Of a stretch of DNA of 64,000 bases, positions 1,237 through 62,822 are shown one piece after another (the stretch's first letter is position 1; every line of letters begins with the position of its first letter). The notes under the pieces are model-generated. The model saw only the letters and a list, made by a program, of their open reading frames with translations, searched no databases and had not been told where the DNA came from. The stretch is from Bacteroidia bacterium (lineage in GTDB: Bacteria > Bacteroidota > Bacteroidia > SpSt-205): NCBI GenBank assembly GCA_026414975.1, contig JAOAHZ010000001.1, positions 167,034 to 231,033 on the forward strand. The letters are read 5' to 3'. The translations under genes were made by a program, and so were the position numbers.

Positions 1237-1244
1237 CAAAGGTA
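1237..1244 (-). promoter_or_regulatory. TAnnTTTG -7 box of recA
   Basis: TACCTTTG on the minus strand, ending 8 nt before the recA ATG. It matches the Bacteroidota -7 consensus TAnnTTTG. The implied transcription start lies almost at the ATG, so the leader would be very short. No clear -33 TTTG is visible. Confidence 0.75.
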
Positions 1245-1277
1245 AGAACTTCTCGCTGAGAATCAGGATGAACCTAA

Positions 1278-1285
1278 TATATTTG
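1278..1285 (+). promoter_or_regulatory. TAnnTTTG -7 box of the TonB receptor at 1301
   Basis: TATATTTG ends 15 nt before the ATG at 1301, leaving room for the AAAGGAGG motif between them. This promoter and the recA promoter are divergent and about 35 bp apart. Confidence 0.65.
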
Positions 1286-1286
1286 C

Positions 1287-1294
1287 AAAGGAGG
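1287..1294 (+). promoter_or_regulatory. Strong Shine-Dalgarno-like site AAAGGAGG
   Basis: AAAGGAGG lies 6 nt before the ATG at 1301. A near-perfect Shine-Dalgarno is an exception in this window, where most promoter-proximal genes have their -7 box so close to the start that no SD fits. It supports the chosen ATG. Confidence 0.6.
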
Positions 1295-1300
1295 TAGTTT

Positions 1301-4003
1301 ATGCATCCAGTTCTACTTAGCTTGATCCTTCTTCTCCTGGGCTACGCTCAGGAAGAGCGGCTTACGCGAGGGCTTATTAGTGTAGAACGCCCTCCAGCCT
1401 TGCAGCGTACGGAAGATCTCACCCGAATACAAGGCCGAGTCATAGATAAAGAATCTGGAGAGCCGCTTGTAGGAGCGGTAATACGTCTTGCTGGAACCGA
1501 TATAGGGACTCTAACCAAGTTAGATGGGGGGTTCCTTCTCATCGTTGACTCTAAGGAAGTATCAGGAGATGCTCGCCTCCTAATATCCTACGTCGGCTAT
1601 GAAGAGAAAGCACTGCCCCTAAACGAGCTAGAAAAAAGCGGCAATATCGCTCTGGCCCCATTGGGTGTGTCCTTGCGAGAGGTGCTGATTTTGGCTTCCA
1701 CAGCTAATTCGCTCTTGACCCCTCTAAATTTTACTAAGATGGAGTCTAAGCAGATTTTAGAGCTGCGTGGTTCCCAGGAATTGACAGAGGCAATACGATT
1801 CTCCCCATCGGTTTATGCTTCAAGAGAAGGCGGGGGGTGGGGTGACTCTCGGCTAAACCTGCGCGGCTTTGAGCAGGAGAATCTCGCCGTACAAATCAAT
1901 GGCATTCCTGTAAATGACATGGAAAACTCCCGAATTTATTGGTCCAACTGGATTGGTCTCTCGGACGTCTTAGAAGAGGTACAAGTCCAGAAAGGACTGG
2001 GTAACGCTCGGATTGTCCTTCCCTCTATTGGAGGGACACTCAACTTACGCACGATATCACCCCAAGCTGAACGCCGTTTTATCTTCACCAGTGAAGCATC
2101 TAATGTGTATAGTGCTCGTTTGAGCCTCTTGTATCATTCAGGTCTTACTACGAACGGCTGGGCTATCACACTTGCTGGCAACCGCGCGGTAGGTCCCGGT
2201 TATGTGCCGGGCACTGATTTTAGCTCATGGACCTACTATGCCACTGTATCCAAGAACATCGGCGATCGGCATCGTCTCCTTCTCCAGGGCTTCGGTGCGC
2301 CGCAGTGGCACTATCAGCGCTTTACTTACCTTACCCAGCGGGACATAGACACACTCTACCGCAGCCCTTTTCATAACTACGACTACGGGTACCTAGATGG
2401 ACAGCGATATGGCAACTTTCGCAACTTTTACCATAAACCCCTCATTAGCCTGAGTCACTTCTGGACGATTTCAGAACGGGTCAGCCTACTCAGCTCAGCT
2501 TATGTGTCTTTTGGACGAGGTGGAGGTTCTGGTATTCTCAGCGTGCGACGAGAATGGGATCGACTTCAATCCACTTACCGACTGCCAGTTCGCTTTGACG
2601 GAATTATACAGTGGGAACAGATACGAGCGGATAACCGAGCCAAACGCGACACCTTGATTCAACCCAACGGCGATACTCTTGTGGGCTTCGTAGCGAATCT
2701 GATCCATCGCAATTCCGTCAATTCTCATAACTGGTATGGGATCGTCTCAGCTCTCAACTTAAACTGGGATCGCATACAAATAAATGTCGGCATAGACCTG
2801 CGATATTACGTGGCATTCCACTACCGAGTAGTTACGAATCTCTTTGGAGCGGATTTTTGGATAGATACGTTTGATGTGCGACGAGGGGAGCGAATCCAGC
2901 TGATCCTGCGTGACACGGCCCGCCCTATTCCACATGCTCGTCTCACCCGAGTGGGAGACAGGGTGAATTACGATTATGACTCGTTTATTAGCTGGCTGGG
3001 CGGCTTCTCTGAGATTAAGTATCAAAGTGGGCCTCTGACTGCTACGCTTGTTTTAGCCGCAGCGAACACGGGCTTTCAGCGACGCGAGAACTTCCGGTAT
3101 CGCCCAGAGGAGCGTCCGCTCCTCTCGCCTGTCATCCGTATCTTTTCATACACAGCCAAAGGAGGGATCGGCTTGCGCCTGACAGACCAGAGTTTGCTGT
3201 ACATAAGCGGAGGATACTTTACTCGACCCCCGTTTTTTCAGTTTATCTTTATCAACGATAGAGCAGGCAACGAAATCGCTCAAAACTACGATGTGGAGAA
3301 AGTGCTTCAGGGAGATGTGGGCTTCCGATGGCAGAGCTCTGGGTTAGTCGCTCAGTTTTCTGCCTATTGGATTCGGTGGAAGGACAAGGTACTTATGTCC
3401 CCCAACATCTCCTTACCTGACGGAAGCTTTACGCAGGTCCGACTCAATGGATTATCTGCCCTGCATCGAGGGTTGGAAGCCGAGATAGGCATGCAGCCAC
3501 TCGCTTGGCTCAAGGTTTCATTCGCAGGAAGCTTAGGGGATTGGCGCTGGGAGCGGGATGTATTTGGGATCGTGCGAGATAACAATCAGCAAATTGTAGA
3601 TACTCTTCAGCTATTTGTGGGCGGATTAAGAGTAGGGAGTGCACCCCAGACGCAGCTCGGTGGCATCCTAAGGCTTGCCCCGACTCCTAATCTGTATTTC
3701 ACGGCGAGCTATTTCTACTACGACCGTTTCTGGGCAACTTTTGACCCAGAGAGCCGAACCAATCCCGTAGACCGCGCCCAGCCCTGGCGGCTTCCCGCCT
3801 ATGGACTCATGGATGTAGCGGCAGGCTATGAAACGTCTATTAGCTCCGATATGCGTCTCCGACTCTTCGGTAACCTCCACAACCTGTTAGATACCCGATA
3901 CATTGTTACAGCCATAGATGGGCCCTCACACGATAGACGCACCGCTCGCTTTTTCTATGGTTTCGGCCGCACCTGGAATATCGGCCTAAGTCTCCTTTGG
4001 TAG
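1301..4003 (+). CDS. TonB-dependent outer-membrane receptor with carboxypeptidase-regulatory-like domain
   Basis: A 900-aa outer-membrane receptor expected to import a ligand with energy from TonB/ExbBD. The order is: signal peptide (MHPVLLSLILLLLGYAQ); a carboxypeptidase-regulatory-like beta-sandwich around residues 42-125 (GRVIDKESGEPLVGAVI); a plug domain about 135-250 (RFSPSVYASREGGGWGDSR, then LNLRGF); and a long beta-barrel ending in an aromatic residue (SLLW). The fold resembles iron-siderophore-type receptors of the FecA group, but the ligand cannot be read from the sequence. The start has a strong SD and a -7 box. Its 3' end overlaps the convergent glycosyltransferase by 18 nt. Confidence 0.93.
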   Translation: MHPVLLSLILLLLGYAQEERLTRGLISVERPPALQRTEDLTRIQGRVIDKESGEPLVGAVIRLAGTDIGTLTKLDGGFLLIVDSKEVSGDARLLISYVGYEEKALPLNELEKSGNIALAPLGVSLREVLILASTANSLLTPLNFTKMESKQILELRGSQELTEAIRFSPSVYASREGGGWGDSRLNLRGFEQENLAVQINGIPVNDMENSRIYWSNWIGLSDVLEEVQVQKGLGNARIVLPSIGGTLNLRTISPQAERRFIFTSEASNVYSARLSLLYHSGLTTNGWAITLAGNRAVGPGYVPGTDFSSWTYYATVSKNIGDRHRLLLQGFGAPQWHYQRFTYLTQRDIDTLYRSPFHNYDYGYLDGQRYGNFRNFYHKPLISLSHFWTISERVSLLSSAYVSFGRGGGSGILSVRREWDRLQSTYRLPVRFDGIIQWEQIRADNRAKRDTLIQPNGDTLVGFVANLIHRNSVNSHNWYGIVSALNLNWDRIQINVGIDLRYYVAFHYRVVTNLFGADFWIDTFDVRRGERIQLILRDTARPIPHARLTRVGDRVNYDYDSFISWLGGFSEIKYQSGPLTATLVLAAANTGFQRRENFRYRPEERPLLSPVIRIFSYTAKGGIGLRLTDQSLLYISGGYFTRPPFFQFIFINDRAGNEIAQNYDVEKVLQGDVGFRWQSSGLVAQFSAYWIRWKDKVLMSPNISLPDGSFTQVRLNGLSALHRGLEAEIGMQPLAWLKVSFAGSLGDWRWERDVFGIVRDNNQQIVDTLQLFVGGLRVGSAPQTQLGGILRLAPTPNLYFTASYFYYDRFWATFDPESRTNPVDRAQPWRLPAYGLMDVAAGYETSISSDMRLRLFGNLHNLLDTRYIVTAIDGPSHDRRTARFFYGFGRTWNIGLSLLW

Positions 4004-5203
4004 CTCATCGCCCCTTAGGCGAAGCACTCCCTCGATCGCTATTGCGCACACATACAATTGAAGCCACTCTACATCTAACCGATAGCGGGTATTCGCCACT
4101 TGATTCAGGGCGTAAAAGAGCGTGAAGACTAAGCTGGACATTAGAACATATAAAGTCAAGCGAGGATAAAAGCGTAGCCCGTATAAGGTTCCTATGAGAA
4201 AGAGGGTATTTATGAGTATGACGGGTAGCTTTCTCACAACCCAAAATTTTAGCGATTGGTCATTCCAGTAACGGGGCACAATCCACCAGAATATGGCGGC
4301 TTGTAGCAAGGTGCGACGGACCAACTTAGGTAGGCCTTGTTGAGTCAAAATTTCCCGGCTAAGTTTTTCAAAAGCAGGGCCACTTACCGACTCAGGCAGG
4401 CGGAGAAGAGAGTCCATCGCACAAGCCAACGAGTCAGAAACGACATAGTCTGGCGATACAGCGATGCCGAAACACCACGAGACCGCAAAGGTATGCTGTC
4501 CTGCATACGTTTTCGTCCAAGTAAAATAGCCAAATGTTGAGTAACCGCGCAGCGCCCATGCAAAGATAGGCAAAAAACCCACTAAAACAGTCCGCCAAAG
4601 CAGTCGCTGCGGCAAAACCCAGATTAGCCCTATAGCCATGGGCAAAAATGCCATAGGCTTTTCTATCCACATGAGTCCCCACCACACTCCTACAAAAGCG
4701 AGCCAACCCCAGCTTAACTTCTCTCTCAGTCTATACACTCCGATCCCCCACAACGCTGTGAAAAAGATAAACAGAACTGTATTCTCCAGCACCGTAGGGT
4801 AATACAAGAACGAAGGATGTAAAGCAAAGAGCAGGCCAGCCAACTTACCAATCGTAGGTGAAGCGATGTGGCTCCCTAGGCGATACATGATAAAAGGCAT
4901 CCATGATAAGAGCAGATGTTGAACTATCACAGGTTGCCACAAATACGACGGATCCCCACCAAGCCATAAAAACAGAGCTAAAAAGAAGGGATAAATAGGA
5001 CCTTTCGCTGTGGTCGGACCGCGCTCGCCAATGCTAAATCCTTCACCTCTGACTAAGTGTAAAGCGATATCCAGGTCCTCAAATCCATTGATAGGCAAGC
5101 GTGCTATAAACTGGAGGGCCACACGAATGGGGAACTGTAAAACAGCTATGAGCACGAATAGCCGTTCGGGCTGACCCCACAACCTACGAAGCCAGTCTAT
5201 CAT
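3986..5203 (-). CDS. Polytopic membrane glycosyltransferase, GT-C (ArnT/PMT-like) type
   Basis: A 405-aa integral membrane protein with about ten hydrophobic segments. Near the N-terminus, an acidic pair in the first periplasmic loop (NGFEDLDIALHLVRGEG) followed by GPIYPFFLALFLWLGG and a Q/H-rich stretch resembles GT-C glycosyltransferases. These move a sugar from a polyprenyl-phosphate donor on the outer face of the membrane. The acceptor is unknown; protein or envelope polysaccharide are both possible. The ATG overlaps the stop of the MazG-like gene by 4 nt (ATGA), so the two are probably translationally coupled. The family call is by fold features, not a signature motif. Confidence 0.75.
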   Translation of the reverse strand: MIDWLRRLWGQPERLFVLIAVLQFPIRVALQFIARLPINGFEDLDIALHLVRGEGFSIGERGPTTAKGPIYPFFLALFLWLGGDPSYLWQPVIVQHLLLSWMPFIMYRLGSHIASPTIGKLAGLLFALHPSFLYYPTVLENTVLFIFFTALWGIGVYRLREKLSWGWLAFVGVWWGLMWIEKPMAFLPMAIGLIWVLPQRLLWRTVLVGFLPIFAWALRGYSTFGYFTWTKTYAGQHTFAVSWCFGIAVSPDYVVSDSLACAMDSLLRLPESVSGPAFEKLSREILTQQGLPKLVRRTLLQAAIFWWIVPRYWNDQSLKFWVVRKLPVILINTLFLIGTLYGLRFYPRLTLYVLMSSLVFTLFYALNQVANTRYRLDVEWLQLYVCAIAIEGVLRLRGDELPKET

Positions 5204-5562
5204 GAGTTATGCTGATTGGACCGCTGGAGGTGCCTTTCTCTATCGCGCTCCGTTTTTTTCCTAAGCTTCTGCTGAAAGGCTTGATTGAGGTCAACATGAG
5301 TCTGATTGGCCAAGCAAACCAATACGAAAAGTATATCAGCGAACTCCTCAGCCAAAGCCTCTTTAGAGGAGTCTTCACCTGGTTTGAAGGTCTGCTCGCC
5401 GTAGTGTCGAGCCAGAAGCCGAGCCAGCTCTCCAACCTCCTCTATGAGGAGCGCCATATTAGTCAGAACACCATAGTACCCTTTTCCCACGGTTTTTATC
5501 CAATCATCCACGACCCTTTGGAGCTCGGGGATGGACAACAGGTTATTCTCGGAGGGAGTCAT
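5200..5562 (-). CDS. MazG-like nucleotide pyrophosphohydrolase
   Basis: A 120-aa all-alpha NTP pyrophosphohydrolase of the MazG type, which hydrolyses (d)NTPs to NMP plus PPi. The metal-binding signature is visible as EEVGEL (EExxE) around residue 42 and EEFADILFVL (ExxD) around residue 73. A single MazG domain of this length is typical of short bacterial and phage forms, in contrast with the two-domain E. coli MazG. Its start overlaps the end of the outer-membrane gene by 20 nt, and its stop overlaps the glycosyltransferase start by 4 nt, so all three probably share one transcript. Confidence 0.88.
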   Translation of the reverse strand: MTPSENNLLSIPELQRVVDDWIKTVGKGYYGVLTNMALLIEEVGELARLLARHYGEQTFKPGEDSSKEALAEEFADILFVLVCLANQTHVDLNQAFQQKLRKKTERDRERHLQRSNQHNS

Positions 5563-6196
5563 CGTACCAATACGCTAAGGTCATAAGCACTCCGTAGTTG
5601 TGCCAGCGTTGGAACAATCCAGAGGCCACATTATTGACTCCATGCCAGAAGCGCAGTCCGAAAGTTAGATAACCTGGACCCGCTAAATAGCCGGCTCCCA
5701 AGCCAAGGTTTAGCGCCAGTTCTGCCCGGCGGACGTCGCTGGCTTCCCTACGGCCAAACCGAACCTGCCGAGTCTCCACCTCGCCTGTGAGATTGTCTCG
5801 CTTCCAGTATTTACCATGGACCAATAGTCCAGAAGAAGGGCCGGCTTCTATGAAAAGGGCCTCAAACTTTCGCATCCAACGCCACACTCCTAACAAGGCT
5901 ATGTCGGTGCTCCATATAGTGTAGCGGTAGTCATACAGCAAGTTGCGGTCTGTAGAGCGTCGCTGAGTAACACCGATTTCGCCCTGAATAGCCCACCAGC
6001 CCTTCGCATCCAACTGCTGTTGAAATGCTAATGCGCTATGAAATCCTCCACCCCAATAGGACCGGGAAACGATATTATCAGCCTGAGTCTGATACTGACC
6101 CCAGTTCAGTCCAACTCGGGGCGCAAACAGCGTCCTTTTCGCTTGTTGAGCTAATACAGCACTCAGATAGAGATACGGTATAATGTACAGGCGCAT
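5543..6196 (-). CDS. Small outer-membrane beta-barrel protein (PorT-like)
   Basis: About 217 aa from the ATG at 6196, with a signal peptide (MRLYIIPYLYLSAVLAQQ) followed by alternating aromatic and polar strands (GGGFHSALAFQQQL, GGYLTFGLRFWHG type patterns, final LAYWY). This resembles PorT-type 8-stranded barrels of Bacteroidota. No enzyme motif is seen. A longer reading from TTG at 6202 is possible but would start inside the TACCTTTG box, so the ATG is preferred. It heads a probable operon with the MazG-like gene and the GT-C gene. Function unknown. Confidence 0.75.
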   Translation of the reverse strand: MRLYIIPYLYLSAVLAQQAKRTLFAPRVGLNWGQYQTQADNIVSRSYWGGGFHSALAFQQQLDAKGWWAIQGEIGVTQRRSTDRNLLYDYRYTIWSTDIALLGVWRWMRKFEALFIEAGPSSGLLVHGKYWKRDNLTGEVETRQVRFGRREASDVRRAELALNLGLGAGYLAGPGYLTFGLRFWHGVNNVASGLFQRWHNYGVLMTLAYWYDDSLRE

Positions 6197-6199
6197 GAA

Positions 6200-6207
6200 C
6201 AAAGGTA
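6200..6207 (-). promoter_or_regulatory. TAnnTTTG -7 box of the small barrel gene
   Basis: TACCTTTG on the minus strand ends only 3 nt before the ATG at 6196, in the 35-nt gap after the SpoIIE-type gene. A transcript starting a few bases later would begin at or inside the start codon. Confidence 0.75.
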
Positions 6208-6231
6208 CGAAACTCGCCCTTCTTATAGCCT

Positions 6232-7797
6232 TCAGAGAGAAAATGCCAAAAGGAGTATATCATCGGTCTGCTCCACACCTTCGGTTTTCCAGGCCTGCCA
6301 CTTTTGTGTGAGGTGGCGGGTCTGAGAGCGTGGATCACCCAAAAACAAGGCACACTCTGTAAGCCAAGACACGAATGTTTTTCGCCCGAGGCGCTTTCCT
6401 CTTGGGTCTAACTGATCCGTAATCCCATCCGTGAAAAGAAACAGGGTAGCCTTTGTTGGATAAGGCAGAGCTATAGTCGTATAGGACTCAGGGGCTTGGC
6501 CGGGAACAGACCAGCCCAAGGCACGCCGTCCGGAGAGATTTTCGTCTATGCGCCCATCGGGCTGGAGAATATAAACAGGGCGCCCAGCTGTGGCGATGTA
6601 AATCGTCTCTTGCTGGCGAAGGGGTAGAGCAACAAGGGCCACTTCAGCCCCTTCATTAGAAAGCTGCTCCCCCAGACGGATGTCCCAGATGTCCGCCAGC
6701 TCCACTCGGACCTCCTCCAGAGCTTGATGAAGAAGCGCAGGCGAGGCCAGCTGCATAAGCGCTTGATGAAGCATAGACTGAATCGTAACGGCAAGCAGAG
6801 CTCCACTACTCCCGTGCCCCGTCGCATCTCCGATTCCAACGTATAGCCAATCCCCCACTCGTCGGGCGACGATGAAATCACCTCCTACGAAGGCATGAGG
6901 CCGTGCCACGGCCGAGACACGTTCATACCCCCATGTATCGTACAAAACCTTTGTTCGGAATAAAATAGTGCGCTGGTACCGCTGAGCCGCTCTAAGCGAG
7001 TCTTCTAACTCTTGACGACGAGAGTCAGACTCAGCCCTTGCTGCTTCCAATGCTTCATTGACCGCTATCAGCTCCTCCTGGTTCTGACGCAGCTCCTCCG
7101 CCTGCACTTGAAGCTCCTGATAAGCCTCCGCCAGCTGTCGCTCCTGTTCCTTTTCTCTCGTCAGGTCTATGATCCCCACCATAATACCGCTTAAGGAGGG
7201 AGACTCAAATGGAAACGCTCTCAGCAACCAGTACTTAGGACCATCTGGACCGTGGCGCTCTATGGTTTCCTGTACAGGAGCCTGAGCCTGTTGAGCCTGA
7301 GTTATTAAGGCTTCTCCTACCTGTACCGCATCTCCCAGTATATCTTGAATGGAGAGTCCTTCGTAGAGTTTCTTGAGAGGAAGCTGCAGGGTCTCCATTA
7401 GAAGTTTATTGGCGAAAGTGATACGCCCCATCTTAGATGAATCATTCGTCTGGAGTACGAAAAGAGGGAGAGGCACATTCTGCACAAAGGCATGCAACTG
7501 CTCTCGAAGAGTCTTAGCCTCGCTCTGAGCTTTCTCCAACCGCTGGATGACATCGTAGTAAGCCTCGGCAGGTAAAAGAAAAAATGTCTCTATGCCATCG
7601 TTTTCCTCTATTATGTGCTTAGACCAGATGCGGCCATTTTCGTGGAGAAAGTCCCATGGAGGTATTAGGAGGGCCTGCTCTTGAATCTCAGGAGAAAGCA
7701 ACTCCCAGGCCTCGTTCTTGGCTAATACCTTACCCTTGTCCTTATGCCATCGCACGCCTGGAAAAGGGGCTTTTAGAGCCGCTCCAAGTCCCAACAT
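6232..7797 (-). CDS. PAS-domain SpoIIE/PP2C-type serine phosphatase
   Basis: A 521-aa cytoplasmic signalling protein. Residues 1-90 are unassigned. A PAS-like domain follows at about 100-215 (PLPLFVLQ, ITFANKLLMETLQLP, then a PAC-like end FPFESPSLSGIMVGIIDLTRE). A long coiled coil spans about 215-275, and a PP2C/SpoIIE phosphatase domain runs from about 280 to the end. The phosphatase shows VGGDF and GIGDATGHG (metal-binding Asp) and FLFTDGITDQ. Such proteins dephosphorylate anti-sigma antagonists or other Ser/Thr-phosphorylated partners in response to a PAS signal. No partner STAS or kinase gene is present here. It starts 7 nt after the YceI gene and is probably cotranscribed with it. Confidence 0.9.
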   Translation of the reverse strand: MLGLGAALKAPFPGVRWHKDKGKVLAKNEAWELLSPEIQEQALLIPPWDFLHENGRIWSKHIIEENDGIETFFLLPAEAYYDVIQRLEKAQSEAKTLREQLHAFVQNVPLPLFVLQTNDSSKMGRITFANKLLMETLQLPLKKLYEGLSIQDILGDAVQVGEALITQAQQAQAPVQETIERHGPDGPKYWLLRAFPFESPSLSGIMVGIIDLTREKEQERQLAEAYQELQVQAEELRQNQEELIAVNEALEAARAESDSRRQELEDSLRAAQRYQRTILFRTKVLYDTWGYERVSAVARPHAFVGGDFIVARRVGDWLYVGIGDATGHGSSGALLAVTIQSMLHQALMQLASPALLHQALEEVRVELADIWDIRLGEQLSNEGAEVALVALPLRQQETIYIATAGRPVYILQPDGRIDENLSGRRALGWSVPGQAPESYTTIALPYPTKATLFLFTDGITDQLDPRGKRLGRKTFVSWLTECALFLGDPRSQTRHLTQKWQAWKTEGVEQTDDILLLAFSL

Positions 7798-7804
7798 CTC
7801 TAAC

Positions 7805-8479
7805 TTATGAACCGCCCACCTGAGCCGCCATTTGCCGCAAGGCCTCTAAACTCTGAGGAGTAGCGATCTCAGCGGCAATCTCCAAGTTAACAATAGGGTC
7901 AACGACAATACTTCCATCTTCGGTTTCCATATGCCAAGTAAGCCCCCAGGCTCGGCGATCGATTTGCGCCGTGAGCGTAAAACTGGCTCGGGGTTGTCCA
8001 ACTATATCCTTAAGAACGAGCCCTTTGAGCTCTCCCTCTAACCGTATTCTGTGCGTAACGCCTTTTATCATAAGGTCTCCTTCTAAGACAAACCGCTTGA
8101 GGGGCCTCCACCGTATTGCTGTACTGCGGAAAGAGATGTGAGGGTACCGCTCTACATCCAGAAAATCAGGGCTGCGAAGATGTGCATCTCGCGCCGGCAA
8201 GTCTGTATCTATACTGGCCGCTTCCACTTGAACTTCTACCTGGAGGTCAGAGAAGTCGGGAGAGCTACCCTTCACCGAGGCAGTATATCGCTTGAAGCGC
8301 CCAGACACCTCCACCAGTCCCATGTGCATAATCCGAAAGCCTACTGTCGTGTGAAAGGGGTCCAACTCCCAAGTAGAAATCCGAGGAAAAGTAGCCGCCT
8401 TCCGCTCTAACTGACGGCTCTTCACCGCCTTTCCATCGGCGAATCCAAGCCAGCTAACTATACGCTGAATCAAACTCAT
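7805..8479 (-). CDS. YceI family lipocalin-like protein
   Basis: A 224-aa protein whose core (about residues 33-210) matches the YceI lipocalin-like fold. It shows WELDPFHTTVGFRIMHMG at the start, VEAASIDTD and HLRSPDFLDVERYPHISFRS in the middle and VTHRIRLEGEL later. Members bind isoprenoid-like or other amphiphilic lipids. The N-terminal 30 residues show no convincing signal peptide, so a cytoplasmic location is possible. It is the first gene of a probable two-gene operon with the phosphatase. A TATCTTTG box lies 47 nt upstream. Confidence 0.9.
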   Translation of the reverse strand: MSLIQRIVSWLGFADGKAVKSRQLERKAATFPRISTWELDPFHTTVGFRIMHMGLVEVSGRFKRYTASVKGSSPDFSDLQVEVQVEAASIDTDLPARDAHLRSPDFLDVERYPHISFRSTAIRWRPLKRFVLEGDLMIKGVTHRIRLEGELKGLVLKDIVGQPRASFTLTAQIDRRAWGLTWHMETEDGSIVVDPIVNLEIAAEIATPQSLEALRQMAAQVGGS

Positions 8480-8526
8480 ATTCCTAAGCTTAGAGACTTC
8501 TTACGCTATGGCAGTAAGTTTAGGCC

Positions 8527-8534
8527 CAAAGATA
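8527..8534 (-). promoter_or_regulatory. TAnnTTTG -7 box upstream of the YceI gene
   Basis: TATCTTTG on the minus strand, 47 nt before the YceI ATG. This gives a normal-length leader of roughly 40 nt, unlike most promoters here. Confidence 0.55.
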
Positions 8535-8577
8535 CGCCATTTATACAGAACTCTCAGGCCGAAGGGCTTTGTCCTCC

Positions 8578-8585
8578 TACCTTTG
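8578..8585 (+). promoter_or_regulatory. TAnnTTTG -7 box of the second TonB receptor
   Basis: TACCTTTG ends 4 nt before GTG 8590 and 16 nt before ATG 8602. The box overlaps the in-frame TTG-initiated extension (8569), which argues that the extension is not translated. Confidence 0.7.
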
Positions 8586-8589
8586 GAGG

Positions 8590-10869
8590 GTGAGATACTT
8601 GATGGGGCTATGCCTTCTTTGGGCTCAAGGGACGATTCGTGGCTCTGTGATAGATAACGAAGGGGAGCCAGTAATAGGAGCTCAGGTTGTAGTTTTCCCC
8701 TTGCAGAAGGGGACTCTAACGAACAATGAAGGGCTTTTTTCCCTGACGGGAATTCCGTACGGCAAGTATCGGCTACGGGTTTCAGCTATCGGTATAGATA
8801 CACTTTGGCAGGAAGTAGAAGTCTCTGCTCGGCGACCGGTAGCTACACTCAAGCTCCAGCCGACGGTTAGTGCTGTGGCATTAGAGGCTGTAGAGATCAT
8901 AGAAAGTGTCGCTCCAGCTCGCATAGACCCGACTCGGGTAACGATAGCGGTTACGCCTATCTCGCCGAGACAGATTCTACAGCTTCCCAGCTTTGGAGTG
9001 CCAGATGTAGCTCAATATCTCCAGGTCCTCCCCGGTGTCGTTTTTACAGGCGATCAGGGCGGCCAGCTTTATATCCGAGGCGGTACCCCTATTCAAAATC
9101 TGACATTATTGGACGGGGCTATCGTATACAGCCCTTTCCACACTCTATCGCTCTTTAGCGTTTTTGAGACAGATATTTTGCGTCAGGTAAATGTGTATTC
9201 GGCTGGGTTTGGAGCAGAGTACGGCGGGCGGATTTCCTCTGTTATAGACCTGCGCACTCGCCCCGGCGACTTTGAGAGGGTGGGGGGGCGAGTATATACA
9301 ACACCTTTTGTAAGCGGTGGCCTCGTAGAAGGTCCGGCCCCATTTCCAAAGAACTCCTCATGGATGGTTTCAGCTCGTCAGGGCCATATTCAGCCTGTAG
9401 CCCCCCGGCTCTACCCCTATTTGAGAGACTCTTTGCCTTTTCAGTTCCAAGACCTGTATGGAAAAGTTACATTCGGACGAGGCCCTGACCAGCTTAATCT
9501 TTGGGGTTTCCGTCAGGTAGATCAGGTGGATTTAGGGCAAAATGGCCTTAATCGCTGGACCCAGTGGGGAGCTGGCTTGAACTTTTCCAATCTCCCCTCC
9601 AATACTCGCGTTCGCATTACGGGGAACCTTGCTTACACGCGCTTTGCTAATACCTTTGAAGACCCTCGGGAGCTGCGACCCCGTTATAGCGAGATTGGCG
9701 GCTTCAACGGGGGTTTTACCTTTTCCTACCTATTTGGAGCGGATGAACTTGCCTATAGCGTGGATGTACGCGGCTTCTCTACGGACTTCCTCTTTACCAA
9801 CGCTTTGGGTTTCATAACCCAGCAGCGCCAGAGCAACACAGAGTTCGCTGGCTGGTTTCGCTACCAGAAGACTTTTCGGGAAGTGCAGCAAGATGAGGCT
9901 GGAGAGCTTCGTTTTCGTACTCGGGCGGTCTTGGAACCCAGTCTGCGATTGCATTTCTACAACACCTACGGTTACATTTCTGTAGAGCCCCGCTTGCGAG
10001 CCAAGTACAACGGAACCCATTGGAGCCTTCAAGCCGCCGCTGGACGCTATGTTCAAAACTGGGTGGCTGCAGTTTCGGACCGGGATGTGGTGATCCTTTT
10101 CCAAGGATTCCTCACCGCTCCTGAAGTACCAGCGAACCAGCAGCTTCGCCACCCTCTGCAAGAGGCCTATCATCTTACTTTCGGGGGAGAATACCAACTC
10201 AAAGATTGGCTCCTCGGCGCTGAAGGGTGGTACAAGCGATTCACTCAGCTTACTATCATCAATAGAGATCGTCTATTACCTGAGGATCCGCCTTTCCTTA
10301 CGGAGGTAGGATACGCTTATGGGGCAGACTTTACCGTGCGATACCAGAGCCCTCGCTGGAGCCTTTACAGCACTTACAGCTATCAGTACAACTGGCGAAG
10401 TGATTTTCGGATAGAGTACTTCCCGCTGTGGGATCGGCGCCATACGGCAAACTTTCTTGGTACTTACCGCTGGGGCGGATGGCTGAGCACACCTCGCTTG
10501 CGAGAGAGCACTTGGGAAGCATCCCTACGATGGACCCTCGGCTCTGGCCTCCCCTTCACCCAGACCCTTGGGTTTTTTGAGAAACTCCTTTTGCTGCAAG
10601 GTTCTCAATCGCCTTACACGATCCAACAGGGACAGCTTGCTGTCCTTCTGAGTCCTAACTATAATGCTGCTCGCCTTCCGGCTTACCACCGCTTGGACCT
10701 CACCCTCAAACGGCGCTGGAAGTTCGGAGCTACTTTCCTGTTAGAAGGCAACTTTACGCTCCTCAATGCCTACAACCGCCCCAACCTTTTCTATGTAGAT
10801 AGAATCACCGCCCGGCGGTACAATCAGCTTCCTATCTTGCCAACTTTGGGAGTAACGGGTATCTGGTAG
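8590..10869 (+). CDS. TonB-dependent receptor with carboxypeptidase-regulatory-like domain
   Basis: About 759 aa from GTG 8590, giving a compact signal peptide (MRYLMGLCLLWAQ). The carboxypeptidase-regulatory-like domain follows (GSVIDNEGEPVIGAQVVVF), then a plug (VPDVAQYLQVLPGVVFTGDQ, QLYIRGG, GFGAEYGGRISSVIDLRTR) and a 22-strand-type barrel that ends cleanly in TLGVTGIW. It should take up a ligand across the outer membrane with TonB; the ligand is unknown. GTG 8590 is preferred because the -7 box ends 4 nt upstream, as at other genes here; ATG 8602 would leave no positive charge before the hydrophobic core. The neighbour downstream is a decayed receptor on the other strand. Confidence 0.9.
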   Translation: MRYLMGLCLLWAQGTIRGSVIDNEGEPVIGAQVVVFPLQKGTLTNNEGLFSLTGIPYGKYRLRVSAIGIDTLWQEVEVSARRPVATLKLQPTVSAVALEAVEIIESVAPARIDPTRVTIAVTPISPRQILQLPSFGVPDVAQYLQVLPGVVFTGDQGGQLYIRGGTPIQNLTLLDGAIVYSPFHTLSLFSVFETDILRQVNVYSAGFGAEYGGRISSVIDLRTRPGDFERVGGRVYTTPFVSGGLVEGPAPFPKNSSWMVSARQGHIQPVAPRLYPYLRDSLPFQFQDLYGKVTFGRGPDQLNLWGFRQVDQVDLGQNGLNRWTQWGAGLNFSNLPSNTRVRITGNLAYTRFANTFEDPRELRPRYSEIGGFNGGFTFSYLFGADELAYSVDVRGFSTDFLFTNALGFITQQRQSNTEFAGWFRYQKTFREVQQDEAGELRFRTRAVLEPSLRLHFYNTYGYISVEPRLRAKYNGTHWSLQAAAGRYVQNWVAAVSDRDVVILFQGFLTAPEVPANQQLRHPLQEAYHLTFGGEYQLKDWLLGAEGWYKRFTQLTIINRDRLLPEDPPFLTEVGYAYGADFTVRYQSPRWSLYSTYSYQYNWRSDFRIEYFPLWDRRHTANFLGTYRWGGWLSTPRLRESTWEASLRWTLGSGLPFTQTLGFFEKLLLLQGSQSPYTIQQGQLAVLLSPNYNAARLPAYHRLDLTLKRRWKFGATFLLEGNFTLLNAYNRPNLFYVDRITARRYNQLPILPTLGVTGIW

Positions 10870-13016: not shown

Positions 13017-13024
13017 CAAAGGTA
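13017..13024 (-). promoter_or_regulatory. TAnnTTTG -7 box of the binding lipoprotein
   Basis: TACCTTTG on the minus strand, ending 5 nt before ATG 13011 and lying inside the longer reading from 13068. This makes the shorter, lipobox-bearing product the likely one. Confidence 0.75.
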
Positions 13025-13223: not shown

Positions 13224-13231
13224 TACATTTG
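13224..13231 (+). promoter_or_regulatory. TAnnTTTG -7 box of the broken SBBP-repeat gene
   Basis: TACATTTG ends 6 nt before ATG 13238. The promoter and start codon are intact even though the gene behind them is not. Confidence 0.65.
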
Positions 13232-17183: not shown

Positions 17184-17191
17184 CAAATCTA
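17184..17191 (-). promoter_or_regulatory. TAnnTTTG -7 box of mnmA
   Basis: TAGATTTG on the minus strand ends 11 nt before the mnmA ATG, the longest gap among the close-set promoters. Confidence 0.65.
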
Positions 17192-26124: not shown

Positions 26125-26132
26125 CAAAGGTA
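26125..26132 (-). promoter_or_regulatory. TAnnTTTG -7 box of the rplM operon
   Basis: TACCTTTG on the minus strand ends 8 nt before the GTG start of rplM. It drives a ribosomal protein operon with almost no leader, so an L13-type leader regulator would have no room. Confidence 0.75.
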
Positions 26133-26150: not shown

Positions 26151-26158
26151 TACCTTTG
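26151..26158 (+). promoter_or_regulatory. TAnnTTTG -7 box of phhB-dut
   Basis: TACCTTTG ends 4 nt before the phhB ATG. It is divergent from the rplM box, with 18 nt between the two elements. Confidence 0.75.
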
Positions 26159-29063: not shown

Positions 29064-29071
29064 TACCTTTG
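29064..29071 (+). promoter_or_regulatory. TAnnTTTG -7 box of the YHS lipoprotein operon
   Basis: TACCTTTG ends 4 nt before ATG 29076 and begins just after the stop of the patatin-like gene. Confidence 0.75.
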
Positions 29072-30617: not shown

Positions 30618-30625
30618 TACCTTTG
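30618..30625 (+). promoter_or_regulatory. TAnnTTTG -7 box of the solitary nuoM
   Basis: TACCTTTG ends 4 nt before GTG 30630, so nuoM has its own promoter. Confidence 0.75.
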
Positions 30626-37116: not shown

Positions 37117-37124
37117 CAAAGCTA
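37117..37124 (-). promoter_or_regulatory. TAnnTTTG -7 box of thrS
   Basis: TAGCTTTG on the minus strand. It ends 1 nt before ATG 37115 and 7 nt before ATG 37109; the second spacing matches the other genes. Confidence 0.7.
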
Positions 37125-37291: not shown

Positions 37292-37299
37292 TATATTTG
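37292..37299 (+). promoter_or_regulatory. TAnnTTTG -7 box of the bactofilin operon
   Basis: TATATTTG ends 5 nt before GTG 37305 and lies inside the longer TTG-initiated reading from 37278, which it therefore argues against. Confidence 0.7.
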
Positions 37300-40364: not shown

Positions 40365-40372
40365 TACCTTTG
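40365..40372 (+). promoter_or_regulatory. TAnnTTTG -7 box of the ALDH7-type gene
   Basis: TACCTTTG ends 4 nt before ATG 40377, in the 21-nt gap after the flavin reductase-like gene. Confidence 0.75.
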
Positions 40373-44182: not shown

Positions 44183-44190
44183 TACCTTAG
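44183..44190 (+). promoter_or_regulatory. Near-consensus -7 box (TACCTTAG) of nadA-thiL
   Basis: TACCTTAG differs at one base from TACCTTTG and ends 4 nt before the nadA ATG, exactly the usual spacing. Confidence 0.5.
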
Positions 44191-49606: not shown

Positions 49607-50416
49607 CTAACTCTTAGAAGACACCGCATCATGTAGCAAAGGTATAGACGGCCGATGGGCTTTTCGGCGATCTAAGAGATAGGCCAGATGAATCTCACGC
49701 AAGATGTAGAACATAGACCCGATAAAAGCTATGCTTACGCCCCGCCAGCCTAATCGCCAACCTCCCTTGACGAATAGACTCTTGATGAAGCGAAAGCTGA
49801 AGCGGAGAAACCCCCGAATCCAGCTGGGTTTACGTCCTGCTTTGTACAAGGCTTCTGCTTGAAGCCGAGCGTATTGGCTTGTGCGGAGGAGATTCTCTTC
49901 GGGAGTGTTGTAGGTGTAGTGCCACAGCTCTCCATGTAGGGTGTAGATTTTGGCAGTAGGGGGCAGCAGCAGTTTTTCGTGGACGGGGTCTTCACTCCAT
50001 CGGGCTATATCGCGCTGAAAGAGGCGAATCTTCCAGTCAGGGTACCAGTCCCCCGAGCGAATCTCGGCGCCGCAGTATATCCCTATCCGAAGCATTCGGT
50101 ACGCATCGGCTTGCCACTGCCCTTTTTCCCGGAGAATAGACTGCTGCAGTTCAGGAGATAGGATTTCGTCGGCGTCTACAGAGAGGATGTATCGGCCTCG
50201 GGCAAGAGAGTTAGCGAAGTTTTTCTGACACCCATAGCCGTCAAAAGGGCGTTCATACCATCGAATACCCTCAATGGTATGAGCGATTTCCTTGGTACGG
50301 TCCGTAGAACCACTATCTACGATGATAATCTCATCGGCTACGCCTTGGAGAGCTCGCAGAGTGAAGAGAAGGTAGCGTTCAGCGTTGTAGGTGATGAGGA
50401 CTGCAGAGAGCTCCAT
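49607..50416 (-). CDS. Family 2 glycosyltransferase, WaaE/KdtX-like
   Basis: About 269 aa from ATG 50416, whose A is also the last base of the permease stop (TGATG). The GT-A domain begins ELSAVLITYNAERYLLFTL and has IIIVDSGSTDRTKEIA and the DXD-like LSVDADEILSPEL. EDPVHEKLLLP and LHGELWHYTY follow, as in lipopolysaccharide core glucosyltransferases of the WaaE/KdtX group. The C-terminus has one amphipathic or hydrophobic segment. The longer reading from 50572 adds 52 unlike residues inside the permease gene. Confidence 0.9.
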   Translation of the reverse strand: MELSAVLITYNAERYLLFTLRALQGVADEIIIVDSGSTDRTKEIAHTIEGIRWYERPFDGYGCQKNFANSLARGRYILSVDADEILSPELQQSILREKGQWQADAYRMLRIGIYCGAEIRSGDWYPDWKIRLFQRDIARWSEDPVHEKLLLPPTAKIYTLHGELWHYTYNTPEENLLRTSQYARLQAEALYKAGRKPSWIRGFLRFSFRFIKSLFVKGGWRLGWRGVSIAFIGSMFYILREIHLAYLLDRRKAHRPSIPLLHDAVSSKS

Positions 50417-51656: not shown

Positions 51657-51679
51657 TATCTTTGCCACCTACAAAGATA
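51657..51679. promoter_or_regulatory. Mirror-image divergent -7 boxes between macB-like gene and queA
   Basis: TATCTTTG (51657-51664) and CAAAGATA (51672-51679) form a perfect inverted repeat with a 7-nt spacer. The first is a -7 box for queA (ATG 51679, 14 nt on). The second, read on the minus strand, serves the permease gene (ATG 51654, 17 nt on). Each box would lie in or near the other's start site, so the two promoters should compete. Confidence 0.65.
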
Positions 51680-53476: not shown

Positions 53477-53489
53477 AGGGCGCATGTTG

Positions 53490-53497
53490 TACCTTTG
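53490..53497 (+). promoter_or_regulatory. TAnnTTTG -7 box of the tRNA pair
   Basis: TACCTTTG ends 6 nt before the first base of mature tRNA-Met. As the 5' end of the tRNA is known by its acceptor stem, this calibrates the start point as roughly 5-7 nt after the box, or the leader as nearly absent. Confidence 0.75.
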
Positions 53498-53503
53498 TAG
53501 AAA

Positions 53504-53577: not shown

Positions 53578-53580
53578 TAG

Positions 53581-53653
53581 CGGGGCGTGGCGCAGCTGGT
53601 AGCGCGCAGCGTTCGGGACGCTGAGGTCGCTGGTTCGAGTCCAGTCGCCCCGA
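53581..53653 (+). tRNA. tRNA-Pro (CGG)
   Basis: A 73-nt cloverleaf: acceptor CGGGGCG/CGCCCCG, D arm GCGC...GCGC, anticodon stem CAGCG/CGCTG with loop TTCGGGA (anticodon CGG at 53614-53616), T arm CTGGTTCGAGTCCAG, discriminator A. It starts 3 nt after tRNA-Met and is surely on the same transcript. Confidence 0.95.
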
Positions 53654-53928
53654 CGAAACCCCTAAAAGGCAGGGGCACTCTGAGCTTCTTCACCGTTCTA
53701 AAAGGTGATTGCCCTCTTTATCCATGCTGCATAGTCGCAGGACGCCAAAGACTTCCCGTCCGTTCCCTTGGTCGCTTCATTCACTCCTTCAAAGCCGCTA
53801 AAAGGTCGTAGCCCTTTACGAGCATAGGTCTTTATGAGGTGATTTGGAAAAACGAGCTTTTAGATGTCCAAATAGGCTCCTCCCGCTAAGCGGGTTGCCC
53901 CAATGGCCCAAAAAAGGGATAGGGCTTA
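53654..53928. other. Intergenic stretch after the tRNA pair
   Basis: About 275 nt without a supported gene. It holds two short hairpins: CCCCT/AGGGG just after tRNA-Pro (about 53660-53676) and CCCGC/GCGGG near 53883-53895. The first may end the tRNA transcript and the second may end the minus-strand operon. Neither has a clear T-run. Confidence 0.4.
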
Positions 53929-55663: not shown

Positions 55664-55669
55664 CTTCGG

Positions 55670-55677
55670 CGAAGATA
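55670..55677 (-). promoter_or_regulatory. Near-consensus -7 box (TATCTTCG) before phoH
   Basis: On the minus strand TATCTTCG ends 6 nt before ATG 55663; it differs from TATCTTTG at one base. It also overlaps the last codons before the preceding gene's stop region, so phoH may have its own transcript. Confidence 0.4.
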
Positions 55678-55682
55678 CCCTT

Positions 55683-56660: not shown

Positions 56661-56661
56661 G

Positions 56662-59451: not shown

Positions 59452-59465
59452 AAAGCTGACAAAGA

Positions 59466-61676
59466 TTAGGGATTCGCCTGATACCTCTCTATCCGCAGGA
59501 GGCCTCGCACTTCAGCGAGAGTCCGTATGACGCTCAAGAGGTCAGGTTCGTTATGCACATACAGCTCTATGATGCCTTGGAAATACGAAGCTCGCCCCTC
59601 TATCCGAATGGAGCGGATATTTTTCCGTTTTCGGAGGGAAATGACTTTGACAATATCCAAAAGCATGCCCTGTCGGTCCTCCCCTTCTAAAAGGAGGGCA
59701 GCAAGAAACTCCTTTTGGGGCGTGGGTATCCATCGCAGCGTACGCACCTTTGTGCTGTCTAAAGAGAGGAGTCGCTGGATTTCTTTGCATGTGGTGCGGT
59801 GAATGACCAGTCCATCGGCTGTTACATAACCCATTATGGCGTCAAAAGGTATGGGGTAGCAGCACGAAGCGTAAGTGTGGGGTTCTTCATTTTGGCCTAC
59901 TTCTATTGCTCCGCTTAGCAAGCCAAGTTGCTGGGACAACTGGTCAATGATAGGGGTAGTCCCTTGTGAGAGGCGTTTGAGCCGGATAAAGTCCTGTATG
60001 CGAGTCAGGTCTATCTTATGCTTACCCAGTCGGTACCACAGTTCCTCCAACGATGGTAGGCACAGATACCATAATAGCTCGCGTATCATGGGGTCATCTG
60101 GGCGAATCCCCATGTGGCGCAGGCGCCACTCAAATATGGCTTTTCCGCGCTCTATCGCCTGTTTTCGCTGTTGTTTGAGGTACTCGCGGATTTTGAGACG
60201 AGCGCGAGCGGTCTTCACAAACGAAAGCTGTTCCTCAGAGGGTTCGGCCCGATCGCTGGTGATGATTTCTACTTGGTCAGCGTTTTGGAGAACGGTATTC
60301 AGTAAGACTGGGCGACCGTTGATTTTGGCAGCAATCGCATGCCTTCCAACCTCAGAGTGTATTTCGTAGGCAAAATCCAGCGCCGTAGCTCCGGCGGGCA
60401 GTACGCGTAGCTCACCCTTGGGGGTGAAAACATATACCTCCTCTTGGGCAATATCCAGTTGTAGCTCACTCAAGAGGTCTACCATCGGCAGGTCTGGTGT
60501 CTCCAAGAGACTTCGGATGCGATTGAGCCAGCGTTCCAGCGCCTCATCGTAAGCCGAGGGGTGTCCATTCTGCCGGCCCTTGTATCGCCAGTGAGCTACC
60601 AAGCCATACTCAGCGGCTTCATGCATGCGACGAGACCGAATCTGAACCTCTACCCACTTTCCCTCTGGCCCCATAACGGTGATATGCAGGGCTTCGTAGC
60701 CTGTAGCCTTAGGTTGAGATATCCAGTCGCGAAGGCGATGGAGGTTGGGGCGGTAAAGGCTCGTAATAATAGAATAGGCCCGCCAACAGTCCGCTTTTTC
60801 CGTCTCAGGTAGTGAGTTCAAAATGAACCTTACGGCGAAAATATCATACACCTCTTCAAAGGGTACCCCCTGCCGCTTCATTTTCTGGTAAATAGAGCTG
60901 ATACTCTTGACCCGACTCTCTACTTTGAACGAAACGGGGAGTTCGGTTTTGAATCGTTGCAAGATCGGCTCTATAAATCGCTGGATGTATCGTTCTCGTT
61001 CGCGAGCGGTCTCTTGAAGTTTGCGAGCTATCTCTTCGTACTGCTCGGGCTCTCGGTAACGGAGAATAAGGTCCTCCATCTCCGTCTTGATGGCATAAAG
61101 CCCTAATCGGTGAGCGATGGGCACGTAGATGTACTCTGTTTCGGCAAGAATCTTGGCCTGTTTCTCAGGTTTGAGTCCGGCGAGCGTGCGTAGGTTATGA
61201 AGGCGGTCGGCAAGTTTGATTAGAGCTACGCGGATGTCATCCGCCATCGTGAGCAGAATCTTGCGGAAGGTCTCTGCTTGGACAGAGTCTAACGGGCTTT
61301 GTACGCGAGTGATTTTGGTGAGGGCTTCTACCAGTCGGGCTACGGTTTCACCGAACTGGGCTTGAATCGTCTCTATATCCGTATCGGTGTCCTCTATGAC
61401 ATCGTGCAGGAGGGCCGCTATCACCGCTGATAGGTCCTTGAGCCCAATCTCTCGCACTAAGATGAGAGCCACAGCGATGGGGTGGAGAATGTAGGGTTCG
61501 CCAGAGCGCCGTCTCATATCGCCATGCTGTTCTACGGCGAAACGAAACGCGCGTCGGAGCTCTGTACGGCCGCTTTTGTCTAAAAAGTCCCCACAAGCCC
61601 GCAAGAGTCGTCTATAGGCTAAGAGAATAACCTTCTTTTCTGCTTCGGCAAAGGTCTGCTCCCATCCCCGCGTCAT
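59466..61676 (-). CDS. Bifunctional (p)ppGpp synthetase/hydrolase RelA/SpoT
   Basis: A 736-aa long RSH protein controlling the stringent response. The HD hydrolase domain is about 45-200 with intact SGEPYILHPIAVALIL, ALLHDVIEDTDTD and DRLHNLRTL. The synthetase domain is about 240-370 (VYDIFAVRFIL, KATGYEALHITV, EVQIRSRRMHEAAEYG, VAHWRYK). A TGS domain follows near 400-460 (VFTPKGELRVLPAGATALDF), and a C-terminal ACT-like domain ends it. Both catalytic halves look intact, so it is a Rel-type enzyme. TATCTTTC, one base from consensus, ends 5 nt before the ATG. Confidence 0.95.
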   Translation of the reverse strand: MTRGWEQTFAEAEKKVILLAYRRLLRACGDFLDKSGRTELRRAFRFAVEQHGDMRRRSGEPYILHPIAVALILVREIGLKDLSAVIAALLHDVIEDTDTDIETIQAQFGETVARLVEALTKITRVQSPLDSVQAETFRKILLTMADDIRVALIKLADRLHNLRTLAGLKPEKQAKILAETEYIYVPIAHRLGLYAIKTEMEDLILRYREPEQYEEIARKLQETARERERYIQRFIEPILQRFKTELPVSFKVESRVKSISSIYQKMKRQGVPFEEVYDIFAVRFILNSLPETEKADCWRAYSIITSLYRPNLHRLRDWISQPKATGYEALHITVMGPEGKWVEVQIRSRRMHEAAEYGLVAHWRYKGRQNGHPSAYDEALERWLNRIRSLLETPDLPMVDLLSELQLDIAQEEVYVFTPKGELRVLPAGATALDFAYEIHSEVGRHAIAAKINGRPVLLNTVLQNADQVEIITSDRAEPSEEQLSFVKTARARLKIREYLKQQRKQAIERGKAIFEWRLRHMGIRPDDPMIRELLWYLCLPSLEELWYRLGKHKIDLTRIQDFIRLKRLSQGTTPIIDQLSQQLGLLSGAIEVGQNEEPHTYASCCYPIPFDAIMGYVTADGLVIHRTTCKEIQRLLSLDSTKVRTLRWIPTPQKEFLAALLLEGEDRQGMLLDIVKVISLRKRKNIRSIRIEGRASYFQGIIELYVHNEPDLLSVIRTLAEVRGLLRIERYQANP

Positions 61677-61681
61677 GAGAG

Positions 61682-61689
61682 GAAAGATA
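61682..61689 (-). promoter_or_regulatory. Near-consensus -7 box (TATCTTTC) of relA/spoT
   Basis: TATCTTTC on the minus strand, 5 nt before the RelA/SpoT ATG, differs from consensus only in the last base. It is divergent from the box at 61703. Confidence 0.45.
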
Positions 61690-61702
61690 CAAACTCCTGC
61701 CG

Positions 61703-61710
61703 CATCTTTG
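61703..61710 (+). promoter_or_regulatory. Near-consensus -7 box (CATCTTTG)
   Basis: CATCTTTG, one base from consensus, ends 4 nt before ATG 61715, the most common spacing in the window. Confidence 0.45.
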
Positions 61711-61714
61711 CTAA

Positions 61715-62374
61715 ATGTGGCGCTTGGGGGTAGTTTGGGGACTAATCTTACAAGCCCAACCCCTCCTCCCCTATAAGGAACTGCATCAACGACTTTATCC
61801 TATCGTGCGCGACACTAATCGGCGAGAATGGCTACCCCGACTACGCCAGGAAATGGAAGCTCTACGCCGCATAGAATGGAACGACCGTTTCTTTCGCGAA
61901 ATCGTAACCTTGTATCTCAATCAGAGTGATACAGTATCGGTTTTGGTTCGTACGGCTGCTCGTTATCTTAAGGTAGACAGCGCCGCTTTGACAAGGCTAT
62001 TCCTGCCGACTCATGACCGGTCGGCCGATGTTTCGTCCTTGAGCTCTGCTTATAGTCTTCTTCTGCGGGATGCGAAGGAGGATTCGTCTCATACCGGCTA
62101 CCTCTTGCGTCAGGGTGCCCTGCTAGCGCAAAGCACGATGGAAGCCTGGCTTACTGCCTCTGAACAGCTTCCTCTATCTCTACTCGTAGAAGCCGCCCTA
62201 AAAGGCTATCTGAGGGCTTTGATTGCCGCCTACACCTTCTTTGGATTTGATGAGTCTTCGGAGAGCTGGCGTGAGAAAATGCGCGTCATAGAAGCTATTG
62301 GCCTTTTAGAGTATTACGCCTATGGAGAGAGCGCTAATGCATTTCGGGCTTGGAAGCGGGGCTTATTGCGATGA
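61715..62374 (+). CDS. Exported helical protein of unknown function
   Basis: A 219-aa protein with signal peptide MWRLGVVWGLILQAQ. The mature part is mostly helical (EWLPRLRQEMEALRRIEWN, YLLRQGALLAQSTMEAW, LVEAALKGYLRALIAAYTFF) and has no cysteines or recognisable motif. I do not know the family. It stands alone between divergent relA/spoT and the DUF2752 gene. Confidence 0.7.
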   Translation: MWRLGVVWGLILQAQPLLPYKELHQRLYPIVRDTNRREWLPRLRQEMEALRRIEWNDRFFREIVTLYLNQSDTVSVLVRTAARYLKVDSAALTRLFLPTHDRSADVSSLSSAYSLLLRDAKEDSSHTGYLLRQGALLAQSTMEAWLTASEQLPLSLLVEAALKGYLRALIAAYTFFGFDESSESWREKMRVIEAIGLLEYYAYGESANAFRAWKRGLLR

Positions 62375-62432
62375 TAGCAGGACGGCGCCCTTCCTTCATT
62401 TCAAGCGGTACCCGAGGCAGCCCCATAAGGAC

Positions 62433-62440
62433 TAAGTTTG
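62433..62440 (+). promoter_or_regulatory. TAnnTTTG -7 box of the DUF2752 gene
   Basis: TAAGTTTG ends 10 nt before ATG 62451. Confidence 0.6.
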
Positions 62441-62450
62441 CGGGAGAGAA

Positions 62451-62822
62451 ATGGCTCGTACCCTCTCCCAACCCCCTCATTCTTGGCGAGAAGCTGTAGA
62501 GCTCCTTATGCGCACTGTGGTAGCTGTGGCTCCCTTAGTTCTCCTTATTCTACCGGCTGACTTCTTTGACCAAGGTCCTCCCCTATGCCCTTCCCAGCTC
62601 CTACTACCCATGAACTGCCCGGGCTGCGGTCTCACCAGAGGCACTCAGCACCTCCTTCACTTAGACTGGAAGCAAGCTATGGAATACAACCCTCTTGTAG
62701 TCGTAACTACCCCCATGCTCGCTTGGCTCTGGCTTAAGCTTCTCAGAAGCACTCTATCTTCTTGGGCGGCGATGACTAAGCGACTCTTGTGGTCAGCTTG
62801 TTTTGATAGTTGCTCTAAGTGA
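62451..62822 (+). CDS. DUF2752 membrane protein
   Basis: A 123-aa protein with the DUF2752 hallmark CPGCGLTRGTQHLLHLD followed by AMEYNPLVVV, and two to three hydrophobic segments. The family is common in Bacteroidota; its role is unknown. The C-terminal tail after the last membrane segment is short and Cys-bearing. A -7 box lies 10 nt upstream of the ATG. Confidence 0.85.
   Translation: MARTLSQPPHSWREAVELLMRTVVAVAPLVLLILPADFFDQGPPLCPSQLLLPMNCPGCGLTRGTQHLLHLDWKQAMEYNPLVVVTTPMLAWLWLKLLRSTLSSWAAMTKRLLWSACFDSCSK

Follow-up and report, generated by a model that had tools for sequence, protein, structure and literature searches.

Bacteroidota have lost the use of Shine-Dalgarno (SD) sequences, a loss that extends across Bacteroidia, and how their ribosomes find start codons is the question addressed here. 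For Flavobacterium and Bacteroides, mapping studies rejected leaderless mRNAs as an explanation. We approached the question from a window of 64,000 nt (the whole stretch of DNA that was analysed) in a genome of 2.2 Mb (58 contigs, 52% GC), where copies of the motif TAnnTTTG end a few nucleotides before many start codons.

TAnnTTTG boxes and start codons in the window

The initial annotation had reported 14 exact TAnnTTTG boxes ending 3–11 nt before a start codon. All 14 are present where it placed them, and 13 precede a credible start at this distance. The exception is the box ahead of 13238, which had been named as the start of an SBBP gene; this assignment is wrong, as the ATG opens just 15 codons and the SBBP frame opens at ~13358. 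One-mismatch boxes had also been claimed for nadA, phoH, relA/spoT, the ABCG gene and the gene at 61715; the three checked individually, at nadA, relA/spoT and 61715, were confirmed. The boxes are given below by window coordinates and strand, with the gap, i.e. the number of nucleotides between box and gene start.

1237–1244 (−), TACCTTTG box, 8 nt before the recA ATG (1228); Pfam match
1278–1285 (+), TATATTTG box, 15 nt before the ATG (1301) of a TonB receptor and followed by AAAGGAGGT; leadered exception, absent from the initial list
6200–6207 (−), TACCTTTG box, 3 nt before the ATG (6196) of an outer-membrane beta-barrel; Pfam match
8578–8585 (+), TACCTTTG box, 4 nt before the GTG (8590) of a TonB-dependent receptor; Pfam match
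13017–13024 (−), TACCTTTG box, 5 nt before the ATG (13011) of a lipoprotein-like gene
13224–13231 (+), TACATTTG box, 6 nt before the 15-codon ATG frame (13238); not the SBBP start
17184–17191 (−), TAGATTTG box, 11 nt before the mnmA ATG (17172); Pfam match
26125–26132 (−), TACCTTTG box, 8 nt before the rplM GTG (26116); Pfam match
26151–26158 (+), TACCTTTG box, 4 nt before the phhB ATG (26163); Pfam match
29064–29071 (+), TACCTTTG box, 4 nt before the ATG (29076) of a YHS-like lipoprotein; Pfam score just under cut-off
30618–30625 (+), TACCTTTG box, 4 nt before the nuoM GTG (30630) and 18 nt after the preceding gene; Pfam match
37117–37124 (−), TAGCTTTG box, 7 nt before the thrS ATG (37109), with an alternative upstream ATG at gap 1; Pfam match
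37292–37299 (+), TATATTTG box, 5 nt before the bactofilin GTG (37305); Pfam match
40365–40372 (+), TACCTTTG box, 4 nt before the ALDH ATG (40377); Pfam match, box kept in the family
44183–44190 (+), one-mismatch box TACCTTAG, 4 nt before the nadA ATG (44195)
51672–51679 (−), TATCTTTG box, 17 nt before the ATG (51654) of a MacB-like permease; leadered example, absent from the initial list
53490–53497 (+), TACCTTTG promoter box, 6 nt before tRNA-Met (53504); absent from the initial list
61682–61689 (−), one-mismatch box TATCTTTC, 5 nt before the relA/spoT ATG (61676)
61703–61710 (+), one-mismatch box CATCTTTG, 4 nt before the ATG at 61715
62433–62440 (+), TAAGTTTG box, 10 nt before the DUF2752 ATG (62451); Pfam match

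Pfam backs the names recA, OMP barrel, TonB receptor, mnmA, L13, PhhB, NuoM-type, ThrS, bactofilin, ALDH and DUF2752; gene 13011 has no Pfam match. A repeat search of the region from ~4000 to 9000 returned nothing relevant.

Such boxes had been expected to arise by chance in well under one case. Our own gene caller counts 48 genes in the window, 11 of which have the box 3–11 nt before their ATG or GTG; the other 839 arrangements of its eight letters average 0.58 such genes, with at most 5, and TANNTTTG is the top arrangement of all 840. Overall, the window holds 41 copies of TAnnTTTG (26.7 expected).

Two further sites deserve mention. At 49637–49644 (−) an exact box precedes, at gap 4, an ATG with a frame of just 18 codons; this may be a small leaderless protein or a coincidence. 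The TonB-receptor gene at 1278–1303 has a perfect SD (AAAGGAGGT) close to its ATG, which is rare in a genome without SD enrichment.

Spacing, promoter function and the start of transcription

The analysis was extended by 400 kb to a sample of 464 kb of the 2.2 Mb; the draft genomes used here are partly masked. Start codons were called by a home-made codon-pair coding model that is blind to the box, and genes were classed heuristically as first-of-unit if divergent from, or > 20 nt away from, the upstream gene. Exact boxes precede the called start at gap 4 in 37–38 genes, at gap 5 in 9–11, at gap 6 in 3 and at gap 7 in 7–8. With the first caller there were none at gaps 8–12 and ~0.6 genes per position further out. 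Control motifs gave ~0.05 per position, and a refined gene caller returned the same profile. The count by distance to start, which the initial annotation had proposed to run genome-wide as a check, peaks at 4 nt in this sample, with the signal concentrated at 4–7 nt and little coming from 8–11 nt. TANNTTTG also ranks first of the 840 arrangements at starts in this sample (88 of 356 genes, as against an average of 2.4 for the others), where TAnnTTTG occurs 322 times in total (control motifs 121–201). The box is found at 74 of 195 first-of-unit genes (38%) versus 11 of 154 internal genes (p = 4e-12), and control motifs at 0.5–1% of first-of-unit genes.

Within the sampled stretches of this genome and one congener, all eight leading tRNA genes carry an exact box 6–10 nt before the mature 5′ end, and the second and third tRNAs of clusters there have none. 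Since tRNA genes are untranslated, the box is a promoter. Its enrichment at starts and its presence at tRNA genes agree with the initial identification of TAnnTTTG as the Bacteroidota −7 element. RNase P RNA was of no use as a start-site yardstick: there was no consistent box, and its gene closely follows another gene. No enriched column was seen at −30 to −36 in 60 gap-4 promoters, where a −33 element (TTTG, ~19–21 nt upstream) was sought; this element is not evident in F. johnsoniae either (PMC6847099), so its absence here does not disqualify the promoters from the sigma-ABfr class.

A fixed distance between box and start codon would also be produced by an SD-like translation signal located in the mRNA 5′ of the start codon, with transcripts beginning further upstream. 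We regard this as very improbable, because the same box precedes every leading tRNA gene, because it is a known −7 promoter element and because it is common before first-of-unit genes but scarce before internal ones, although these need translation too. The exclusion of TTG starts (below) argues in the same direction.

The tRNA spacing, with its minimum of 6 nt, places the start of transcription within 6 nt downstream of the box. In F. johnsoniae the element is numbered T−12 to G−5, which puts +1 four nucleotides after the box (PMC6847099); by this numbering, +1 would be the first base (A or G) of the start codon at the gap-4 peak, in agreement with the tRNA bound. From the edge of the ATG distribution and from the tRNA 5′ ends we infer a start 4–6 nt after the box.

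Start codons at the peak were counted independently of gene calls, in frames of ≥ 60 codons. At gap 4 there are 45 ATG, 19 GTG and one TTG (depletion of TTG, p = 6e-4), and ATA, ATC and ATT do not occur; at gaps 1–3 ATG and GTG together total just 11. The sharp left edge and the lack of ATA, ATC and ATT at gap 4 mean that the peak needs a start codon and not merely a purine. The spacing is also conserved. ALDH orthologues have an exact box 4–10 nt before the ATG in 12 of 12 family genomes (76–85% identity to this genome within the genus, 68% in the sister genus). Although their N-termini vary in both sequence and length, the ATG travels with the box. The ALDH homologue of a comparison genome (G021, called Flavobacteriaceae-like here, a label guessed from how large its group is among the sampled genomes) has no box.

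These data bear on the idea that the ATG behind the box only mirrors an initiator preference of RNA polymerase for A or G at +1, the true start codon lying later. Polymerases generally favour a purine at +1, and the near absence of TTG at gap 4 fits it. However, ATA, ATC and ATT are absent despite having the same +1 base, the ATG and GTG codons at gap 4 open long frames, and the ALDH ATG shifts with the box while the length of the N-terminus changes. Of the explanations considered we find this the least probable.

Real promoters at the boxes could still be minor ones, if additional upstream promoters made most of the mRNA and the working transcripts were leadered. The nearest exact box within 100 nt of the 195 first genes lies at 3–7 nt in 73, at 8–11 nt in 7 and at ≥ 12 nt in 23, and 92 have none; about half of the first genes thus lack an exact box and 23 have one only at a leadered distance, which speaks for such promoters. 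Yet the box has no second peak at 12–60 nt. The pattern TANNTTTGN{3,6}ATG occurs 375 times in the whole genome (38 for the reversed control), whereas with the box moved to a spacing of 20–23 nt the count is just 92, barely over its control (61). The spacing is moreover kept in orthologues with different N-termini. Dominant upstream promoters are therefore unlikely, though less so than the two preceding explanations.

The best reading, to which we assign a probability of roughly 0.88 on the strength of these sequence patterns, is that the mRNAs are leaderless or have ultra-short leaders. TAnnTTTG (mostly TACCTTTG) is the −7 element that the housekeeping sigma factor of Bacteroidota uses, and in this family (f1) it has become fixed right up against the start codon. 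RNA polymerase would start on the first base of the ATG or GTG or within ~6 nt of it, a site that follows from the Flavobacterium numbering, and would yield mRNAs that are leaderless or have leaders of 1–6 nt. Ribosomes loaded with initiator tRNA would then presumably recognize the 5′-terminal AUG or GUG with no SD pairing and no upstream Kozak-like context. Strictly leaderless transcripts (gap 4) are probably the commonest class, and gaps of 5–10 imply leaders of 1–6 nt; some gaps of 8–11 correspond to leaders of 4–7 nt and are not strictly leaderless.

The initial annotation had proposed widespread leaderless mRNAs. The gap-4 peak, its sharp left edge, the specificity for ATG and GTG, the tRNA calibration and the conservation in the family all point to leaderless or ultra-short-leader transcripts being widespread. 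Its extension to ‘most primary transcripts’ fits the first genes with a recognizable box, ~78% of which (exact box within 100 nt) have it at 3–11 nt, as against 7% in the Flavobacteriaceae-like genome; it does not extend to the 92 of 195 first genes without an exact box. The share of all transcription units is estimated to lie between ~38% (exact box at 3–7 nt) and roughly half (one-mismatch boxes added, net of controls), and can only be given as a range, since weak boxes and other sigma factors escape the count.

SD sequences, bS21 and the internal genes of operons

SD-like motifs precede 7 of 196 first genes and 5 of 147 internal genes, the level of control windows. The earlier statement that no SD can act at these starts is right but not specific to this genome, and internal genes also lack SD enrichment. 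For internal operon genes the initial annotation had proposed a reliance on overlap with the preceding stop. Codirectional gene pairs overlap in 96 of 241 cases (37 as ATGA) versus 19 of 193 in the Flavobacteriaceae-like genome, a pattern that would fit such coupling. Searches for 16S in the genus gave no match. In one congener (G400) the 16S gene reads as N except for its 3′ end; its tail is GGCTGGATTACCTCCTTT, so the anti-SD core is intact. The 3′ end of this gene reads GGATTACCTCC where GGATCACCTCC is usual, a C-to-T change just 5′ of the anti-SD.

The ribosomal protein bS21 was detected in 11 of 12 genomes tested; a genus member that is 99% complete (G404) gave no bS21 match, through either a gap in the assembly or a true loss. 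Its gene, rpsU, is the exceptional strong-SD gene of Bacteroidota, where the SD serves autoregulation (PMC9976891). As in that system, rpsU is present in f1, and its AAY motif aligns by eye with the Tyr54 region of F. johnsoniae. Unlike it, the rpsU ATG lies 6–7 nt behind an exact box in seven of the eight f1 genomes read (G000 among the eight) and follows a one-mismatch box in the other, which leaves no space for an SD in the transcript. The Flavobacteriaceae-like rpsU has the expected AAAGGAGGT and a spacing of 29 nt. Given the lack of room, SD-based autoregulation of bS21 appears to have been lost in f1 although bS21 was kept.

Start-adjacent promoters within and beyond the family

In Actinobacteria and Deinococcus-Thermus > 20% of genes are leaderless (PMC3160421), and mycobacterial leaderless translation accepts ATG or GTG at the 5′ end but not TTG (PMC4633059). 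The genome described here resembles the systems of Mycobacterium and Deinococcus-Thermus in having the promoter box directly 5′ of the start codon and in using ATG and GTG but not TTG. It differs in its box, the TAnnTTTG element of Bacteroidota, and in its ribosome, which comes from a phylum with a hidden anti-SD. Mycobacteria translate SD-led mRNAs as well, whereas here not even internal genes show SD enrichment. With the sigma-ABfr promoters of F. johnsoniae, F. psychrophilum and B. thetaiotaomicron it shares the −7 box, the lack of SD and the intact anti-SD core. In those three species, however, leaders are the rule, with medians of 24–32 nt, in contrast to the ~78% of exact-box first genes at 3–11 nt here. 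Leaders < 10 nt make up 3.7% in B. theta (PMC7366714), leaders ≤ 10 nt 13% in F. johnsoniae (PMC6847099), and 5.5% are leaderless in F. psychrophilum (PMC9723704). In the literature searched, the mapped Bacteroidota follow the leadered rule and start-adjacent promoters are rare in studied members. Leaderless mRNA and the promoter are both known; the novelty lies in the two being fused, as the prevailing arrangement of a Bacteroidota family.

Of 396 genomes from the phylum, this one has the highest ratio (375:38). Ratios of ~5–21 were obtained for each of the ten further members of the genus and for one genome of the sister genus, and a genome of another family in the same order has 1.4, so that the trait is weak there. 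Because reversing the pattern is not a perfect control where AT content is high (the Flavobacteriaceae-like genome has 1.3 near and 1.1 far), we drew conclusions from gap profiles and near/far ratios and not from that control alone. Partial samples of each genome, run through the same pipeline, gave first genes with a box at 3–7 nt as 26 of 88 in a congener (G397), 6 of 46 in G407 of the same order, 58 of 200 in G441 of the same class (family f91), 3 of 121 in the GC-rich G415 and 4 of 201 (2%) in the Flavobacteriaceae-like genome. The last value fits the 5.5% mapped as leaderless in F. psychrophilum (PMC9723704), an agreement that supports the method. G415 (GC 66%) was not counted as leaderless, since its ratio is high but its boxes are few. 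The free profile of G407 peaks at gaps of 5–8 with none at 4, as if leaders of 1–4 nt were preferred. G441 has a clear peak at gaps 4–5 and, beside it, many leadered promoters, a mixed state.

Four genomes of family f26, which belongs to another class (G382, G136, G113 and G101), have near/far ratios of 3.1–6.7 (3–6 versus 20–23 nt before ATG); these whole-genome pattern counts suggest an independent leaderless lineage. Together with the gap-4 peak of G441 they indicate that the start-adjacent box may have arisen more than once in the phylum. We speculate further, at somewhat less than even odds, that leaderless initiation is dominant in f1, evolved more than once in Bacteroidota (f1, the separate family f91 and f26) and swept up rpsU in f1, leaving SD and anti-SD without a general client though the anti-SD is kept, and a ribosome that relies on 5′-terminal AUG or GUG.

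If the transcripts are leaderless, most genes would be translated without a leader or a ribosome-binding site, and a family in which most recognizable promoters abut the start codon would show that the phylum has a second way of finding starts, one that keeps the usual promoter element and the anti-SD core. Leaderless f1, mixed f91 and the leadered Flavobacteriaceae would form a comparison set for the roles of the hidden anti-SD, bS21 and the Kozak-like context. The promoters could also serve to annotate start codons in these uncultured genomes. By RecA, the nearest named relative is the MAG ‘Bacteroidia bacterium SKYG92’ (85%), whose recA likewise has the box 8 nt upstream.
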